From a candidate division TA06 bacterium SM23_40 (GTDB taxonomy: Bacteria; LJUI01; SM1-40): a DNA stretch of 19,493 nt. Where the stretch lies: NCBI GenBank assembly GCA_001303705.1, contig LJUI01000034.1, positions 1 through 19,493 on the forward strand. The letters are read 5' to 3'. The position numbers and the translations under genes are program-made. This document shows, piece by piece, positions 12,095 to 19,493 of this stretch. The notes beneath the pieces are model-generated. The model searched no databases. It was not told where the DNA came from and was given only the letters and a program-made list of their open reading frames with translations. The number at the start of each line of letters is the position of its first letter. Positions within the stretch are counted from its first letter, which is position 1.

Positions 12095-14143
12095 ATGGCG
12101 AGAGAACTGAAAGTAGATCAATTCGGCAGTAAAGTTGCGGTCGTCAGGCTCATCATTTTCGCCTGGGTCCTACTCTCCGCCCGACTGACGGGCGCGTTCC
12201 ACGACTCCGCCATCCCCCTGTCCCCGAACGCCCTGCTCGCTATCGGTTGTCTGTACGGAATCGCCTCGACCTTCCTGCCCCTCAAGAAGATGCCCCGAAT
12301 CCGCAGGGACATGCTTCTGGTGGCATGGGATACCGTATTCGCAACTGCGATCACGCTTGCCACAGGAGGAGTGGCCAGCCACTTCTACCCCGTATTCTTC
12401 ATACTCCTTTTTGAGACGAGCATCCTGTTCGGCCTCCGTGAGACCTTCGAGATAGCGATCCTCGTCTGTCTCGTCTATCTATATACCGGCCTCCTCATGG
12501 GCTGGTATGTGGAGATACCGAAGGTCGTGTACTTGCAGGTCGCGGTCTTCTCTATCCAGTGCCTCCTCCTCGGGGTGCTATTCGCGCTGCTTGTCCAGGC
12601 GGCACGCACTCAAGCTCAACGGGCACAGGACCTGAGCTGCCTCTATGAGGTGAGTCGCGTCTTCTCGTCTACATTCCAGCTCGACGGAATCGTTACCGGC
12701 ACTGTGCGAAGGATCGCCTCGATCATGCGCTTCGATCGTTGCGCCATCATCCTCCGAGGCGATGACGAGAAGACATTACTGTTGCAGGCCGGATATGACG
12801 GCACGAAGGAAGAGCCCTGGGTGATCAAGCTGCCACTGGAATTGGCGCGTTATCCCGAAGTACAGCAGGCCCTGGAGACGAAAGAGCCGGTTATCGTGTC
12901 CGATCCGACGAACGATCCGATCATGAGCTCGGTCCGCGACGGTCTGAGCGACCTGCCTCTCGGAAGCATCGCCGTCGTCCCGCTCGTACTGGGGACGGAA
13001 GCGATCGGCACACTCAGCATCGCGAGGACGCTTGATCACCCTGCGCTCACCGACAACGAAATCAATCTCTGCCGCATTCTCGCCAACCAGACAGCGATCG
13101 CCATAGAAAAAGCCCGTCTTTTCGAGCAGGAGCGAAGACGAAACACACAGCTGGCAGTGATCAACGAGATCAACCGCCAGGCTCTCTCCACACTGGAACA
13201 GGATATCCTGCTTCACAATGTCGCCGAAGCACTCAGACGCAACTTCAACTGCACCAGCGCCGGGCTGTACGTGCTCGATCGCTCAACTGGACTGCTCACC
13301 CTCGAGGCGTTTGCAGGGCCCAAACACATAGAGCACGTACTGCGGAATGAATTGGAGTGTGGCAACAGCATTGCCGGCCACGTGTCGCGGACCGGTTCGA
13401 CCGTATTGACGAGGGGCAGCACAAGACGCGATCTTCAGGGCAGCGGCCCGGAAAACGAGACACACCTGTTTGCTCCCATCAAGGTCGATGACGGAACCGT
13501 GGGGGTCATCGCCCTCCGATCGAGAAACGCCCTCGCCTTCAGCGACGGGGAGACATCAATCCTTGAGGCACTCTCAGGTCCCCTCGCGAATGCGATCCAG
13601 AACGCTCAACTCTACGAGCGGGCGAGGCAGCTGTCGATATCAGATACGCTGACCGACCTGTACAACAGCCGATATCTGTTCCAGGCGCTCGATAAGGAGC
13701 TGGCCCGAGCTGACCGGTACGGCACACTCCTTTCGGTGGTCGTCCTCGACATCGATCACTTCCAAATGATCAATGACCGGTTGGGAAGACCGGCCGGAGA
13801 CCAGATCCTGAAGCAGTTCGGTAGGTTGCTGCCCACGCTCGTCCGGGATGCCGATTTCGTCGCCCGGTACGGCGGAGAGGAATTCGTCATCCTCATGCCT
13901 GAGACGCCACAGGAAGAGGCGACTATCGCAGCCCAGAGAATCTGCTCCATGATCGCAGAGCATCGGTTCAGACTCGAGGAAAGCGCCGAACCCGTCCAGA
14001 TTACGGTCAGTGCCGGCGTCGCCGCCTACCCCGGGGAGGGTACGGACAAAATGAAGCTCCTCCACGCTTCCGACCTCGCGCTCTACTCAGCCAAGAGACT
14101 CGGGACGAGTAAGGTGATGGCTGCCCGGGAGCAGCAGAGCTAA
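12095..14143 (+). CDS. Membrane diguanylate cyclase with two GAF domains and GGDEF
   Basis: The 682-residue protein has about six N-terminal membrane spans (residues 12-170). GAF domains follow at about 190-340 and 365-503, joined by short helical linkers (ending EKARLFEQERRRN and NAQLYERARQL). A C-terminal GGDEF domain spans about 515-675. The active-site motif is RYGGEEF (GGEEF at 593-597), and an RxxD inhibitory site (RDAD, 584-587) lies five residues upstream. It should therefore make c-di-GMP from two GTP and be product-inhibited, with the membrane and GAF parts as sensors. Guanine-contact Asn560 and Asp569 are kept. The segment DIDHFQMINDRLGRPAGD has Gln for the usual Lys and Arg for the usual His. 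The ATG at 12095 has AGGAGG 11 nt upstream. It stands alone, 163 bp after the sigma54-type motif. Confidence 0.93.
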   Translation: MARELKVDQFGSKVAVVRLIIFAWVLLSARLTGAFHDSAIPLSPNALLAIGCLYGIASTFLPLKKMPRIRRDMLLVAWDTVFATAITLATGGVASHFYPVFFILLFETSILFGLRETFEIAILVCLVYLYTGLLMGWYVEIPKVVYLQVAVFSIQCLLLGVLFALLVQAARTQAQRAQDLSCLYEVSRVFSSTFQLDGIVTGTVRRIASIMRFDRCAIILRGDDEKTLLLQAGYDGTKEEPWVIKLPLELARYPEVQQALETKEPVIVSDPTNDPIMSSVRDGLSDLPLGSIAVVPLVLGTEAIGTLSIARTLDHPALTDNEINLCRILANQTAIAIEKARLFEQERRRNTQLAVINEINRQALSTLEQDILLHNVAEALRRNFNCTSAGLYVLDRSTGLLTLEAFAGPKHIEHVLRNELECGNSIAGHVSRTGSTVLTRGSTRRDLQGSGPENETHLFAPIKVDDGTVGVIALRSRNALAFSDGETSILEALSGPLANAIQNAQLYERARQLSISDTLTDLYNSRYLFQALDKELARADRYGTLLSVVVLDIDHFQMINDRLGRPAGDQILKQFGRLLPTLVRDADFVARYGGEEFVILMPETPQEEATIAAQRICSMIAEHRFRLEESAEPVQITVSAGVAAYPGEGTDKMKLLHASDLALYSAKRLGTSKVMAAREQQS

Positions 14144-14424: not shown

Positions 14425-15363
14425 TCACTGCATCTCCCCGGCCCTCGCTAGTGCCTTCCCCACAAACCCATCAGCCTCTCGGAGCAAGGCCTCCGCCTCT
14501 GAGCGACCCAGATTCTTCTTGATCATGATGATCGCTGTCTTCACGCTGCCTCCCGCCAGATCGAGCATGCGCGCCGCATCGTCATACGAGACCCCGGTTA
14601 CGATCATCAGCACGCGCTTCGATCGCTCAGTCAGCTTCTGACTCGTTGCCTGGAGATCAACCATCATATTCTCATAGACCTTGCCCAGTCGCACCATCGA
14701 AGTCGTCGTGAGCATATTGAGAACCATCTTCTGCGCAGTCGCCGCCTTCATCCTCGTCGACCCCATGATCACCTCAGGGCCGACAAGAGGAGCGATGACG
14801 ATGTCGGCCTCGATGTCGGCAGTGGGCGACGGATTAGAGCAGAGATAGACTGTCCGCGCACCCAGCTCCCGCGCCTTTGCCAGAGCCCCGAGGACAAATG
14901 GCGTGCGGCGGCTAGCCGCGATACCGACGACGATATCCCGTTCTCCCACTCCCCTGGCAATCAGCTCCGCCTCACCCTCCTCGGCTCTGTCCTCCGCCCC
15001 CTCCTGCGCCCGAACCAGCGCCCCGTATCCGCCGGCGATGACTCCCTGAATCATATCCAGTGATGTCCCAAACGTGGGAGGACACTCCGCCGCATCGAGA
15101 ACCCCCAGGCGCCCGCTAGTGCCCGCGCCGACATAGATGAGCCGTCCCCCGTGGCCAAGTGCTTCGACGATGACTTCAACGGCGCGCTCGATGTTGGGTA
15201 TCTCCTCTGCCACGGCGCGTGCAACACGTTCATCCTCGCGATTGATGATCTCCAGGATCTCGCGAATGCTCTTACTATCCAGGTCCATGGTGCGAGGGTT
15301 GCGCTGCTCCGTCATGAGCTCTCGGAGTTCCTCGAACACTTCTCGACCGCCTCTTTCAGTCAC
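14425..15363 (-). CDS. murQ: N-acetylmuramic acid 6-phosphate etherase MurQ
   Basis: MurQ cleaves the lactyl ether of MurNAc 6-phosphate to give GlcNAc 6-phosphate and D-lactate, a cytoplasmic step of peptidoglycan recycling. The 312-residue protein has the family's N-terminal TEQRNPRTMDLD and the SIS-domain signature YVGAGTSGRLGVLDAAECPP. It also has QEGAEDR, with the second catalytic-type acidic residue, and MGSTRMKAATAQKMVLNML with LTTTSMVRLGKVYENMMVDL. The C-terminal helical part (VKTAIIMIKKNLGRSEAEALL) is complete. I chose the GTG at 15361-15363 because AGGAG lies 6 nt upstream; the ATG at 15313-15315 would still keep the core. It follows the sugar kinase by 60 bp and is the last protein gene before tRNA-Gln. 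No MurP transporter gene is present, so its substrate probably comes from the adjacent kinase. Confidence 0.96.
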   Translation of the reverse strand: MTERGGREVFEELRELMTEQRNPRTMDLDSKSIREILEIINREDERVARAVAEEIPNIERAVEVIVEALGHGGRLIYVGAGTSGRLGVLDAAECPPTFGTSLDMIQGVIAGGYGALVRAQEGAEDRAEEGEAELIARGVGERDIVVGIAASRRTPFVLGALAKARELGARTVYLCSNPSPTADIEADIVIAPLVGPEVIMGSTRMKAATAQKMVLNMLTTTSMVRLGKVYENMMVDLQATSQKLTERSKRVLMIVTGVSYDDAARMLDLAGGSVKTAIIMIKKNLGRSEAEALLREADGFVGKALARAGEMQ

Positions 15364-15423
15364 GTCTCTCTCCTCAACCGAATTGTGCCCGCCGCCGTCG
15401 GGCCACCCATCTCCAATCTCCCG

Positions 15424-16419
15424 TCACGCTCCGGAGATGGGAGACCGACACCTCCACGCACGTTCGCTCCGATCGAGGCGGTTCAGGAGATCGGCGTCGA
15501 GGTCGACATCCGCTCTTCCCAGCGCCACCAGAGAGGCTCCGAGAGAAGGGGAAAACCTGGGGGGTACGATCTCGATTTCGACCGAGGTGCGGGCGATAAC
15601 CCGCTCAAGCAAGGCATAGGAATCCCGGAAGAGACCACCGAACGGACAGAGAGGAACGACGACCGAGTCGAGGCGAAGCTGCTTGATGACACTATCGACC
15701 AGGTGCGCCAGCGCCTGCCCGGCTTGGTCGAGGATGGTGGCGGAAACGCGGTCCCCCTCCCCGGCTGCATCGAAGACGAGGGGCGCGAGCGAGGCCAGTC
15801 TGCTCACGGCGGCGTCACGGTCTCCGTATACCCAGTCGATGACATCGTCGATAGAACTGAGCCCGATGTGAGCTGCCAGCTTGGGCAAGAGAAGTGTCTC
15901 CTCCCCGCTCCCATTCTGCGCCGCGAGAGCCGCCATGACAGCCCGCCGTCCCAGATCGTATCCGCTTCCGTCGTCTCCGAGCAGATGACCCCATCCCCCG
16001 GCACGCGCGCTGCCACCTCGCTCATCGACCGCCATCGCCAGCGATCCTGTACCGGCGATGAGTGCGACGCCCGATCTCCCGGGAAACGCACTGACCAGGG
16101 CAGCTACGCCGTCGCTTGTCACCAGGATATCCTGCGCGGGAATCCTTTCACGTACTGCATCGAGGACAGTCCGCTGCGCCCGGGGGCGCCCGGCTCCGGC
16201 CAGAGCGAGGCAGATGGAGCGGGGAATCTCTCGCTCTACTTCCGCCAAGATCTTGCCCTCAGCCACCAGCTGCGCCATGACCCGGGCAACGGGCTCCACC
16301 CCGCTGAGCAGATAGTTGCCCGGTCCACCCCTCAACAGAGCCAGTACTGTACCGTCCAGGGCTACGAGCGTCGCTGTGCTCGCACTGCCCCCTCCATCGA
16401 TGCCAATGACATATTCCAT
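15424..16419 (-). CDS. BadF/BcrA-type N-acetylglucosamine/N-acetylmuramic acid kinase (MurK/NagK-like)
   Basis: The 331-residue protein has the ASKHA ATPase layout of the BadF/BadG/BcrA/BcrD sugar kinases. It has phosphate-1 motif YVIGIDGGGSASTATLV (residues 3-19), phosphate-2 region TSDGVAALVSAF and ALIAGTGSLAMAV, and GGWGHLLGDDGSGYDLGRRAV (141-161), typical of amino-sugar kinases. The iron-sulfur cysteines of 2-hydroxyacyl-CoA dehydratase activators are not seen. The gene lies directly upstream of murQ. That suggests ATP-dependent phosphorylation of MurNAc and/or GlcNAc to the 6-phosphates, as for the clostridial kinase MurK. The ATG at 16417-16419, with GGTGAG upstream, fits the family N-terminus. 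The frame is open to 16554, but that extension would overlap the upstream gene and lacks family similarity. Confidence 0.88.
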   Translation of the reverse strand: MEYVIGIDGGGSASTATLVALDGTVLALLRGGPGNYLLSGVEPVARVMAQLVAEGKILAEVEREIPRSICLALAGAGRPRAQRTVLDAVRERIPAQDILVTSDGVAALVSAFPGRSGVALIAGTGSLAMAVDERGGSARAGGWGHLLGDDGSGYDLGRRAVMAALAAQNGSGEETLLLPKLAAHIGLSSIDDVIDWVYGDRDAAVSRLASLAPLVFDAAGEGDRVSATILDQAGQALAHLVDSVIKQLRLDSVVVPLCPFGGLFRDSYALLERVIARTSVEIEIVPPRFSPSLGASLVALGRADVDLDADLLNRLDRSERAWRCRSPISGA

Positions 16420-16459: not shown

Positions 16460-17353
16460 TTATCCCTCGCCGCGCCTGCTGCGCGACGCCAGATAGCCGA
16501 CGTTACCCAAGATGATGCAACCGATGATAAGAAGATGTGCCACCGATTGCGCATCCATGCCTCGGCTCGCCCGTCCCGTCATCCCGATCAACTGCTCGTA
16601 CTCGGACGCACCCCTCAGGCCGGGAATCAGACCCTCGATCTGGCCCGAGTCGAGATAAGGATAGAAGACCGTCGCCATGACGGCCGCGGCCCCGGAGACG
16701 ATGCGCTGGCCGTACCTGGCGCCGGCATACTGTATCCAGAGTACCATCTCGGTGCCGGAAGCGAATCCGACCATCAGCGGGATGTCACGGTAGTTCTCGA
16801 TACCGTCCATTACGGGATACTCTGCCGTTGGCTGCGAACGGAAATCCCGGGGGAAGACACGCACAATATCCTCGCCCATGCCCAGGATGGCAGCCTCGAT
16901 CTGAGGCTTATACCCGAGATGGACGTAATCGACGCCGTAGACTCTGCCCATCTCATCGGCAACGCTGTCGAGCACCTCTGCCCCTATGCTCGCCCCTTCG
17001 GGGAGGAGCCCAAGCCCCAGCACCCTCAGGTCGCGGCGGAAACAGTGCCGGACAACCGCCACGGTCATGGGGTACAGTTCCGGCATCGAGGGCGCACCGA
17101 AGTCGAAGGAGATGAGTATCGGAGTTCTGGCCGGGAGTTCCTCGATCGCATCGTACACCCTCCGCACCTCATCGGTGACGGGGATGCGTAGGCCGAGAGG
17201 CCGAAACAGGATACCCACCACAGCGACGGCGATCGCCAGGTACAAAATCCGCCTGTCGACCTGCCCCAGTCGGGCAATCGCTTCATTTTTCAGACGACGA
17301 CGGGGCTCGGGTCGCTCGAACCCATGTTCGCGCTCTGTGCGCGGATCCGGCAT
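16460..17353 (-). CDS. Uncharacterised membrane-anchored protein, soluble domain between two TM helices
   Basis: I do not recognise a named family. The 297-residue protein has a charged N-terminal tail, one membrane helix (about 35-54), a soluble alpha/beta-like domain (about 55-265) and a C-terminal membrane helix (about 271-289). Notable segments are TPILISFDFGAPSMPE, DYVHLGYKPQIEAAILGM, VGFASGTEMVLWIQY and SGQIEGLIPGLRGASEYEQL. These line up in order with segments of the protein encoded at 18732-19475, so the two may be homologous. It lies 17 bp after the upstream membrane gene and 40 bp before the amino-sugar kinase. I chose the ATG at 17351-17353, with GGGGGG 8 nt upstream; a TTG at 17372-17374 would overlap the preceding stop. 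Function is unknown. Confidence 0.82.
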   Translation of the reverse strand: MPDPRTEREHGFERPEPRRRLKNEAIARLGQVDRRILYLAIAVAVVGILFRPLGLRIPVTDEVRRVYDAIEELPARTPILISFDFGAPSMPELYPMTVAVVRHCFRRDLRVLGLGLLPEGASIGAEVLDSVADEMGRVYGVDYVHLGYKPQIEAAILGMGEDIVRVFPRDFRSQPTAEYPVMDGIENYRDIPLMVGFASGTEMVLWIQYAGARYGQRIVSGAAAVMATVFYPYLDSGQIEGLIPGLRGASEYEQLIGMTGRASRGMDAQSVAHLLIIGCIILGNVGYLASRSRRGEG

Positions 17354-17370
17354 TGCGCCAGCCCCCCAGG

Positions 17371-17979
17371 TCAATCAGCCAGTAGATGGAGCCAATCGCC
17401 CAACAGAAACTGCATGCGCCCGATCAACAGAGATATGCGGGCCATGACTGTGTAGCCGAATGTGGCCCCGAATCCCACCATAAGAAACCACGTGCCCAGC
17501 GTGGCCACCTTCCCCAACGCTCCCTCGTGGCGCACACTGAACAGAAAGTAGACGAGGGTTGCCGCCACTCCGACGACCAGGATAACAGATGAAAGCGATG
17601 TGAGTGGGATCATCGTCGCCTCGATCTGCCGGTACACCCGCGCATCGACCGCAGTCGGAATGGAGACCCCCGCCCCGGCTCCGATGACAAACGCCATCGG
17701 CACCCGGCTCAGCCAACTCCATCGCAACGAGAATCGGGTCAGCATGAGGAGCCCCATCGCGAGCGGGACGAGCACGAGCACGTTGCCTCCCTCCACGAGT
17801 GGCACCCACAGTTTCGGGATGAGTGTGGTATGCCAGTACAGACCGACAAAGTACCCCAGCGACACGCCGACCAGAATGTGCTCCGCCAGCTTGTAGATCG
17901 GATTGTCCCTGTATAGAAAGGAATAGATCGCCAGTGTGAGAATGGCCGCCACCCAGATGCCTATGGTCGTCATCGCCAT
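17371..17979 (-). CDS. Uncharacterised polytopic membrane protein (about six TM)
   Basis: The 202-residue protein is almost entirely hydrophobic, with about six membrane spans (around 6-22, 33-49, 67-81, 91-110, 132-152 and 161-185). The polar motif YRDNPIYKLAEHILVG follows the first span and may be functional. I recognise no transporter or enzyme family. The ATG at 17977-17979 is preceded by GGGGGAG; a second ATG six bases on is equally possible. The frame is open upstream to 18345, but that part is arginine-rich, overlaps the neighbouring gene in another frame and is not membrane-like. It lies 38 bp after the upstream membrane gene and 17 bp before the next, so these are clearly one transcription unit. 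Confidence 0.82.
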   Translation of the reverse strand: MAMTTIGIWVAAILTLAIYSFLYRDNPIYKLAEHILVGVSLGYFVGLYWHTTLIPKLWVPLVEGGNVLVLVPLAMGLLMLTRFSLRWSWLSRVPMAFVIGAGAGVSIPTAVDARVYRQIEATMIPLTSLSSVILVVGVAATLVYFLFSVRHEGALGKVATLGTWFLMVGFGATFGYTVMARISLLIGRMQFLLGDWLHLLAD

Positions 17980-18017
17980 CCCACTCCCCCTCTCGCCGGG
18001 GGCCATCTCGACCGCAG

Positions 18018-18641
18018 CTACTCGACCCCGAGATAGGACCGTTCGACCCCGAATATTATGCGGAGCGACGTGGAGATCGCCCCCAGCCCGATGCCTATCG
18101 TGATTCCTCGCATCGCGGCTGTGTTGGGGACATTCAGTACCCAGTTCGATGCGATCGGGATCGCCCTGTGAATCGCCTCTCCGATCGGAACGCGACCGAG
18201 CATGACGACCATCGCAGCGGCCAGGAGGATCCCCGCCTCCCTGGTGCGCACGCGAAACCCGCGGTACGCAGCGGACACGACAAAGAAGGCCAGGAGCGAC
18301 ATCATGGTCGATTGCATCGGCGCCTGCACATACCGAAACAACCAAGCATACGGAGTCCCCTGCTCAATCCCTCCCACTACTCCCAATATACCCATGACCG
18401 CCAATCCCGCCAGTGTCGCAATGCTGTATCTCCACCCCGCCCGTCTGACAACCACCCGCCGCCAGTGTATTCTACCCAGACCGATCACTCCCACGGCGAG
18501 TGCGAAGACGCTTACGATCTGCATCCAGTCGAGGACGTTCTCGTATACGTACCGCGACAGTGGATGGGGTACGAAGAACTGAACAGCCATAAGGACGCCC
18601 ATTACGAAACAGAGCGCGAGAGGTACTCCTCGCTTCGCCAT
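18018..18641 (-). CDS. Uncharacterised polytopic membrane protein (about six TM)
   Basis: The 207-residue protein has about six membrane spans (around 5-24, 37-57, 72-91, 109-126, 135-150 and 176-194). The most distinctive stretches are FRYVQAPMQSTMMSLLAFFV, SAAYRGFRVRTREAG and MLGRVPIGEAI, which read like conserved loops. I cannot assign a family or activity. The ATG at 18639-18641 has GGAGG just upstream and puts the first span at the N-terminus; the frame is open to 18722, but the extra part is not membrane-like. The gene is 90 bp from the preceding gene and 38 bp from the next, all on the same strand. Confidence 0.8.
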   Translation of the reverse strand: MAKRGVPLALCFVMGVLMAVQFFVPHPLSRYVYENVLDWMQIVSVFALAVGVIGLGRIHWRRVVVRRAGWRYSIATLAGLAVMGILGVVGGIEQGTPYAWLFRYVQAPMQSTMMSLLAFFVVSAAYRGFRVRTREAGILLAAAMVVMLGRVPIGEAIHRAIPIASNWVLNVPNTAAMRGITIGIGLGAISTSLRIIFGVERSYLGVE

Positions 18642-18731
18642 CCATCCTCCAGACCGATCAGATCTTGCCGCCGAATACTGTATCTGCCCGACCGCTCCGC
18701 CGCTGGGTGCGGCCCGCCACACCTATACTCG

Positions 18732-19475
18732 TCACCGGACTAACGCTCGTGCCACCATATCGATGCCAAACGTGCTGAGAAGAGCGCCCAACACAGCCAA
18801 CAGGATCGCCGCGATCTTGAGCCAGTCTTGCCCCACGAGACATCCCAGGAGCGACGGCTCGCGGGAGAGGTATGCGCTGGCAGCGTACAGTTCCTCTCCG
18901 ATGAGGGTGTAGTCGCATGTGACGAGAAAGAACGCGAGCTGAATCGTCGAATCCGTTCCCGCGACCTGGATGGCGCCGGTGACGTGCCCCGTCTCGGCGA
19001 GGATGAGAGACTCGGCTGCGAACGAACCCATGTACAGATTGGTCGCGGGGCGTTCCCGCAGCATCAAGCCGTCGACTGCAGCCGCATACCCGAACTGACT
19101 CTCAGTCAGAAAGAAGACGTCTCGCTCCTCGTACGCATCCGGATGGCCGACACGCAAGCAACCCTCCCGCACCACCTCCTGGGCCACCGTCATGACGACG
19201 GCATCTGCACATGGCACGAGGAGCCGCGTTCCATGTGCGGCTACACGCTCGGCCACGGTCCCCAGTATGTTCATCGACGCCATGGTGGAGACCCGCGACA
19301 TCGGGCTGATCCCCGGAGAGTAGAGCACAGGCCTCCCCATCTCCGTCGCTCGCCCGACCGCCTCATCGATCGCCGCGAGACCGGCAATCCTTCTGAGAGT
19401 GATTTCTTTTCGATGGCGGGCGAGGCCGATCCCGAGGAAGATGGCGAACCCACACAAGAGACAGCCGACAAGCAC
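18732..19475 (-). CDS. DUF6754-like membrane-anchored protein, 5' end near window edge
   Basis: The 247-residue frame has an N-terminal membrane helix (about 1-18), a soluble domain (about 30-215) and a C-terminal membrane helix (about 218-240). The stretch AAIDEAVGRATEMGRPVLYS is, from memory, the hallmark of the uncharacterised DUF6754 family; I could not check this. Other segments are DVFFLTESQFGYAAAVDGLM, VAGTDSTIQLAFFLVTCDYT and LLGCLVGQDWLK. The start shown is a GTG at 19473-19475 with AGGA 5 nt upstream. The frame stays open to the right edge, so the true start may lie outside. It is the first visible gene of the membrane cluster; no function is known. Confidence 0.8.
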   Translation of the reverse strand: MLVGCLLCGFAIFLGIGLARHRKEITLRRIAGLAAIDEAVGRATEMGRPVLYSPGISPMSRVSTMASMNILGTVAERVAAHGTRLLVPCADAVVMTVAQEVVREGCLRVGHPDAYEERDVFFLTESQFGYAAAVDGLMLRERPATNLYMGSFAAESLILAETGHVTGAIQVAGTDSTIQLAFFLVTCDYTLIGEELYAASAYLSREPSLLGCLVGQDWLKIAAILLAVLGALLSTFGIDMVARALVR

Positions 19476-19493
19476 TCCTGTCCTGTCGGCTGC

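Follow-up and report, generated by a model that had tools for sequence, protein, structure and literature searches.

A widespread seven-gene system with a DUF6754 protein and a putative membrane module, found in candidate division TA06 bacterium SM23_40 and other bacteria

The right end of contig LJUI01000034.1 of candidate division TA06 bacterium SM23_40 (assembly GCA_001303705.1) was analyzed together with related loci in other genomes. The stretch comprises 19,493 nucleotides and is called the window below. Its four terminal genes encode members of protein families A, B, C and D, which belong together with three further families, E, F and G (the letters are our own labels). The seven-gene system is genuine and broadly conserved, and no description of it was found in the searched material; a literature search, which did not cover subscription-only papers and preprints, returned no paper using DUF6754, PF20539 or PF13941. 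Judged from sequence comparison, we are highly confident that the families G-E-F-A-B-C-D constitute one undescribed, widespread system. Whether the window genes are the membrane module (A, B, C and D) of a seven-component cell-envelope system powered by E, as proposed below, we consider evenly balanced. The initial annotation had treated the four genes as a candidate complex of their own and underestimated the system, to which G, E and F also belong.

Genes of the window

The source contig (C133) ends at window position 19493. The four genes are located on the minus strand and are transcribed in the order A, B, D, C. Gene A (18732..19493) encodes a full member of DUF6754 (PF20539; 345.3 bits at a Pfam cut-off of 27). 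Its 5' end, and with it the N-terminal part of the protein, is cut off by the contig end, so that the cluster does run past the right edge, as had been suspected. Gene B (18018..18641) encodes a protein of 207 amino acids with six transmembrane (TM) segments, according to its open reading frame and an alignment of 24 homologues. Gene D (17371..17979; 202 amino acids) encodes six, perhaps seven, TM segments in an alignment of 22 homologues, and gene C (16460..17353; 297 amino acids) encodes a Rossmann-like domain between two TM segments, based on an alignment of 24 homologues and an AlphaFold model. With ATG starts, the genes are spaced by 90, 38 and 17 bp, identical to the values first given for four adjacent genes on one strand. 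The alignment-averaged hydropathy indicated two TM segments for A, six for B, six to seven for D and two for C, and one TM helix lies on either side of an alpha/beta domain in the models of A and C; the 2-6-6-2 pattern read initially from the sequence was thus recovered. D precedes C here (A-B-D-C; D and C at 16460-17979), whereas nearly all other cassettes have the order A-B-C-D, as do those on contigs C183 and C119 in this genome.

Distribution and cohesion of the A-B-C-D cassette

A first sample of 59 genomes and a larger scan of 386 genomes of the same domain were used. DUF6754 was present in 14 of the 59 genomes, each from a different family. In separate searches, B, C and D each hit all 14 of these genomes and none of the remaining 45; the models of B, C and D were built partly from these 14 genomes, and the informative part is the absence from the other 45. 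In every one of the 13 DUF6754 genomes other than that of SM23_40, the four genes form one same-strand cluster ordered A-B-C-D. An additional gene was inserted between B and C in one cassette (L047).

The larger scan detected DUF6754 in 102 genomes of 68 families, and a scan of genome contigs yielded at least 580 confirmed relatives. The best 80 of these include Zixibacteria, Latescibacterota, Edwardsbacteria, TA06, Stahlbacteria/WOR-3, Cloacimonadota, Eisenbacteria, Poribacteria, Coatesbacteria, Fermentibacteria/Aegiribacteria, Armatimonadota, Mcinerneyibacteriota and others. Cassettes are also carried by Candidatus Syntrophosphaera thermopropionivorans W5. A total of 115 complete cassettes with median gaps of 12, -1 and 3 bp were collected from 91 loci in at least ten named phyla, and the unit was kept in nearly all further loci examined beyond the first sample. 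The genes therefore do stay together across phyla, which the initial annotation had set as a check. Given this range, with many candidate phyla and as many as six copies detected per genome, the system probably belongs to the basic biology of these lineages.

The genome of SM23_40 was searched with the window DNA, and related DNA was found on C183 and C119. These contigs carry four more B-C-D sets, each with A; one set on C183 is cut within D by the contig end. The genome contains six A genes in all. In one set, A-A-B-C-D on C183 (L009, 5694-8376), two successive A genes precede a single B-C-D set.

For the 115 cassettes, the pairwise distance matrices of the four proteins correlated at 0.63-0.83. 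Exchange of paralogues within loci lowered every correlation; of the 300 shuffles, a single one reached the observed value, and only for A-D. This speaks strongly against the four genes being independent neighbours. By the measure of these distances, paralogous cassettes evolve as units, and together with the shared presence in 14 genomes this bears out the earlier reading of the fixed gene pattern as one unit. At L095 (14337-17421), a normal cassette is followed by another A-(B)-C-D set that has diverged strongly (27-44 bits) and suggests a sister subfamily; a diverged D was also seen on G030:C47.

Partner genes G, E and F

A protein of the GlmL/MutL family PF13941 (E; about 600-680 amino acids) recurs beside the cassettes. 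E of SM23_40 matches PF13941 with 412.7 bits over profile positions 1-450 of 450. The motifs DCGSTTTK, VDIGGATTD and GSGG are kept in at least 90% of 25 sequences; by this comparison, E retains the phosphate-1, phosphate-2 and adenosine motifs of the ASKHA (actin/Hsp70/sugar-kinase) superfamily. F (376 amino acids) has a barrel-sandwich-like N-terminus with weak RnfC_N, NqrA_N and biotin-lipoyl matches, a KOW-like C-terminus, and no Pfam family. G, of about 115 amino acids, has no family and precedes E.

Complete operons G-E-F-A-B-C-D occur in several lineages, sometimes followed by a second A-B-C-D; examples of a complete operon are the loci L066, L076 and L108. In SM23_40, G, E and F lie side by side on contig C72, the end of which cuts F, and the cassettes are located on other contigs; five cassettes have this one E-F-G in common. 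Some genomes encode single E-F fusion open reading frames of about 950-1045 amino acids (an E match, then F), which argue for direct contact between E and F. Fusions situated away from A-B-C-D were recorded at L139 (894-3932), L140 (7322-10171), L141 (8296-11322), L142 (6826-9663) and L144 (6878-9925). These stand-alone fusions comprise about 950-1015 amino acids, their host genomes also carry the normal system, and that of L144 begins with a helix-turn-helix-like segment.

F was found in 97 of the 386 genomes, all of them among the 102 DUF6754 genomes. E was found in 108, 97 of which were DUF6754 genomes (97/102). The Fisher p values against DUF6754, uncorrected for relatedness, were about 5e-86 for F and 2e-71 for E. 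Eleven genomes encode E but no DUF6754; nine of these E proteins are short, high-scoring and GlmL-like, and two (G087 and G274, assemblies 85% and 90% complete) are of the long form. In G087, the long E follows a G gene. At least 196 DUF6754 domains were counted over the 102 genomes, 49 of which have two or more, and full-length F is almost always single per genome. As A is multiplied and F is single, one E-F-G module appears to serve several membrane modules.

Families, motifs and predicted folds

The visible part of A consists of a TM helix, a Rossmann-like alpha/beta domain and a C-terminal TM helix. Complete paralogues have an additional N-terminal ectodomain; across the A proteins this ranges from none to about 900 amino acids and is often fibronectin-III-like. 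In the A paralogues of SM23_40, the ectodomains are 36-43% identical and the cytosolic parts 55-58%. The motif CDYTLIGEExxAAS is located near the C-terminus of A, with C, D, L, I, G and E invariant in 25 sequences. Among the invariant residues are C191, D192, E199 and E159 of A and E73 of C. The mean column identity is 57% for the cytosolic domain of A, 32% for B, 41% for C and 46% for D. The alignment of 22 D homologues revealed the motifs FSFLYKDNPFYKFAEHLFVGVSAGY and FGASFGYTVMARISLLIGR.

The initial annotation had assigned none of the four proteins to a family. This held for B, C and D: C had no Pfam or NCBIfam match, B and D had no reproducible Pfam match (24 and 22 sequences, respectively) and no NCBIfam family, and a strong match to an unrelated known family was likewise missing for all three in these databases. 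It did not hold for A, which belongs to DUF6754, a family without known function; among the fixed partners of A, only E has a Pfam family. Searches of Pfam, NCBIfam, PHROGs and PADLOC assigned no named enzyme or transporter family to B, C, D, F or G. The PADLOC defence models matched no component except for a weak hit of G to Cas11a (E-value 0.0012), and the PHROGs phage library gave nothing of weight.

AlphaFold modelled A with a predicted local distance difference test (pLDDT) score of 90.9 and a predicted template-modelling (pTM) score of 0.85, and C with values of 93.3 and 0.88. In both models, a six-stranded alpha/beta domain is preceded and followed by a TM helix. For A, Foldseek returned nothing at an E-value of 0.001 or lower; its one hit for C was unconvincing. 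A sequence search for solved relatives of A, C and F gave chance-level or weak matches only. VIA-align placed both models in a broad Rossmann-like group (sirtuin, CODH epsilon, MT0777, RCK, GmhA and SDR), matches that indicate nothing certain on the ligand or function of A or C. The best match of A was sirtuin 1ma3 (Z 11.7, root mean square deviation (rmsd) 3.6, 142 residues). MT0777 (1kjn) matched A with Z 9.9 (rmsd 3.5, 134 residues) and C with Z 10.4 (rmsd 3.0, 137 residues), and the CODH epsilon subunit (9c0r) gave Z 9.8 and 9.9, respectively. From the models, we read A and C as two subunits of similar fold. As sequence homologues they were rejected (hhalign probability 0.7%), and any relation rests on the fold. 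B and D were also rejected as sequence homologues (hhalign probability 1.7%).

Based on loop charges, the domain of A is predicted to be cytosolic and that of C extracytoplasmic, with B oriented N-in/C-in and D N-out. The N- and C-termini of C are charged. If this topology is right, it suggests a membrane module of two pairs of opposite orientation.

Proposed mechanism

Judged from its motifs and partners, E probably drives or gates the system. Since E keeps the ASKHA nucleotide-binding motifs, it is proposed to bind ATP. Together with F and G, it would dock on the cytosolic domain of A, which is highly conserved and would be the meeting point of the membrane module with the E-F(-G) ATPase assembly. 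Docking would change the state of the membrane core formed by B (N-in) and D (N-out), and ATP binding or hydrolysis by E would open, drive or assemble the complex. The domain of C and the variable N-terminal domain of A would face outward and contact a substrate or the envelope. The most likely task would be moving or remodelling an envelope-related substrate. One energising module would serve several cassettes that differ in their ectodomains, much as a single cytosolic ATPase module serves several exchangeable membrane modules in group II energy-coupling factor (ECF) vitamin transporters. The analogy is functional only; E has a predicted actin fold, unlike the ABC ATPase of the ECF transporters, and there is no sequence relation.

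The ATP-driven mechanism is inferred, and we give it about the same weight as its negation. A wider reading is tentative and somewhat doubtful, namely that the system represents a new class of ATP-driven envelope machine. Here, the actin-fold ATPase E and its barrel-sandwich/KOW partner F would power exchangeable membrane modules with Rossmann-like domains on both membrane faces (A inside, C outside) and six-TM subunits B and D of opposite topology, in a large share of the little-studied bacterial phyla. If E powers A-B-C-D, this would be a new use of actin-fold ATPases, which would drive a multi-subunit membrane complex rather than rescue an enzyme.

Several points weigh against the proposed system and mechanism. 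The genomes are related to each other, and the Fisher values overstate the significance; the set relation of E and F with DUF6754, taken from the genome counts, is clear despite the inflated values. E was undetectable in the DUF6754 genome G007, both E and F were missing in G058, G077, G217 and G255, and F of G030 is very weak; either E-F is not strictly required or these assemblies are incomplete. The topology is derived from charge bias only. The fold matches of A and C are no proof of kinship, and hhalign detected no sequence similarity between them. Finally, the neighbours of the cassettes differ from one lineage to another (gcv genes, TonB systems, aroK/aroB, serA) and indicate no single process.

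Alternative explanations

The system could instead be a sensory or regulatory complex without transport. A (inside) and C (outside) would bind a nucleotide or metabolite, the ectodomain of A would sense the surface, and the shared E-F would be a cytosolic switch, by analogy with one kinase common to several chemoreceptors. The variable ectodomain on a conserved cytosolic core of A, the use of one E-F by several cassettes, and a DUF4388 gene after one cassette (L097) agree with such a role, but two conserved six-TM subunits exceed the needs of a receptor, and a constant link to a kinase, cyclase or response regulator was not seen. We regard this explanation as unlikely. A redox or ion pump resembling Rnf or Na+-NQR is less probable still. 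In that case, F would be RnfC/NqrA-like, B and D would correspond to the RnfA/RnfE pair, and A and C would bind nucleotides. The N-terminus of F does weakly match the barrel-sandwich domains RnfC_N (best 2.2e-5) and NqrA_N, the two six-TM subunits have predicted opposite orientations, and A and C are Rossmann-like. Against this, the F matches listed fall below the Pfam cut-offs, the consensus of 26 F sequences contains no conserved cysteine for iron-sulphur clusters, and searches at E-values up to 1 listed no Rnf-Nqr match for 22 D sequences or, among the best 25 of 38 families, for 24 B sequences. Nor is there a linked dehydrogenase or flavin subunit; an ATPase takes the place of the dehydrogenase subunits and would be unexplained. 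Membership of B, D and F in Rnf/Na+-NQR was rejected on these grounds, and a resemblance in layout remains.

E might also be a true GlmL, the reactivating chaperone of a cobalamin mutase, with the membrane genes as unrelated passengers. GlmL/MutL proteins (PF13941; TIGR01319, NF040745 and NF040744) are accessory proteins of glutamate mutase and ornithine degradation, and E resembles them in its alignment over the full 450-position profile (390-440 bits for E proteins) and in its ASKHA motifs. Unlike them, E is longer, with an extra C-terminal part, and is below all three NCBIfam cut-offs (220.5 against 475 for GlmL, 210.7 against 600 for Or-4, and 152.7 against 204 for the GlmL family). The glutamate mutase E subunit PF06368 is absent from the SM23_40 genome (89.8% complete), and none of the 59 genomes had a match above the cut-off; E is tied instead to F and DUF6754, with which it co-occurs. 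This explanation is disfavoured and very improbable. The gene set provides a concrete partner list for DUF6754, and it bears on proteins that automatic annotation may call 'GlmL/MutL' in genomes without glutamate mutase.

Genomic neighbourhood

Among the neighbours of the cassette loci examined, none was constant outside the seven genes. The gene gcvPB (glycine decarboxylase subunit 2) directly precedes G-E-F in ten loci of SM23_40 and several other lineages (L048, 3512-5029; L066, L069, L075, L076, L081, L095, L108, L112 and L115), and gcvH and gcvPA were found near the cassette of L098. In some loci, D is followed on the same strand by genes for a TonB-dependent receptor and/or ExbB, two ExbD and TonB-like proteins (L108, 13088-18676; L112, 13086-18732; L097, 10114-12285; L066, 17780-20554). 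NfeD-stomatin and an SLBB export protein were each found once beside a cassette. The TonB-dependent receptors, ExbB/ExbD/TonB and SLBB export neighbours hint at the envelope in some lineages. Assignment of a function from gcvPB, TonB/Exb, NfeD-stomatin or SLBB was rejected, as none is constant.

At L009 (12328-13797), a repeat protein with a DUF5122-like propeller, an FlgD-Ig domain and a weak secretion-tail match is encoded upstream of the cassette. At least eight FlgD_ig matches were counted by eye in 53 of the 102 DUF6754 genomes versus 37 of the 284 others. These counts hint at a link to secreted proteins with FlgD-Ig domains or sorting tails, but phylum is a confounder and the association is by no means exclusive; the link was not retained.

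In the window, gene C is followed on the minus strand by genes for a BadF/BcrAD-type (GlcNAc/MurNAc-kinase-like) ATPase and MurQ, the MurNAc-6-phosphate etherase (14425-16419), with gaps of about 40 and 60 bp. They likely form a muropeptide-recycling pair and may be co-transcribed with the cassette; the pair was not seen beside the other cassettes examined. A membrane-anchored GGDEF diguanylate cyclase with two GAF domains is encoded at 12095-14143 on the plus strand, opposite to the cassette.

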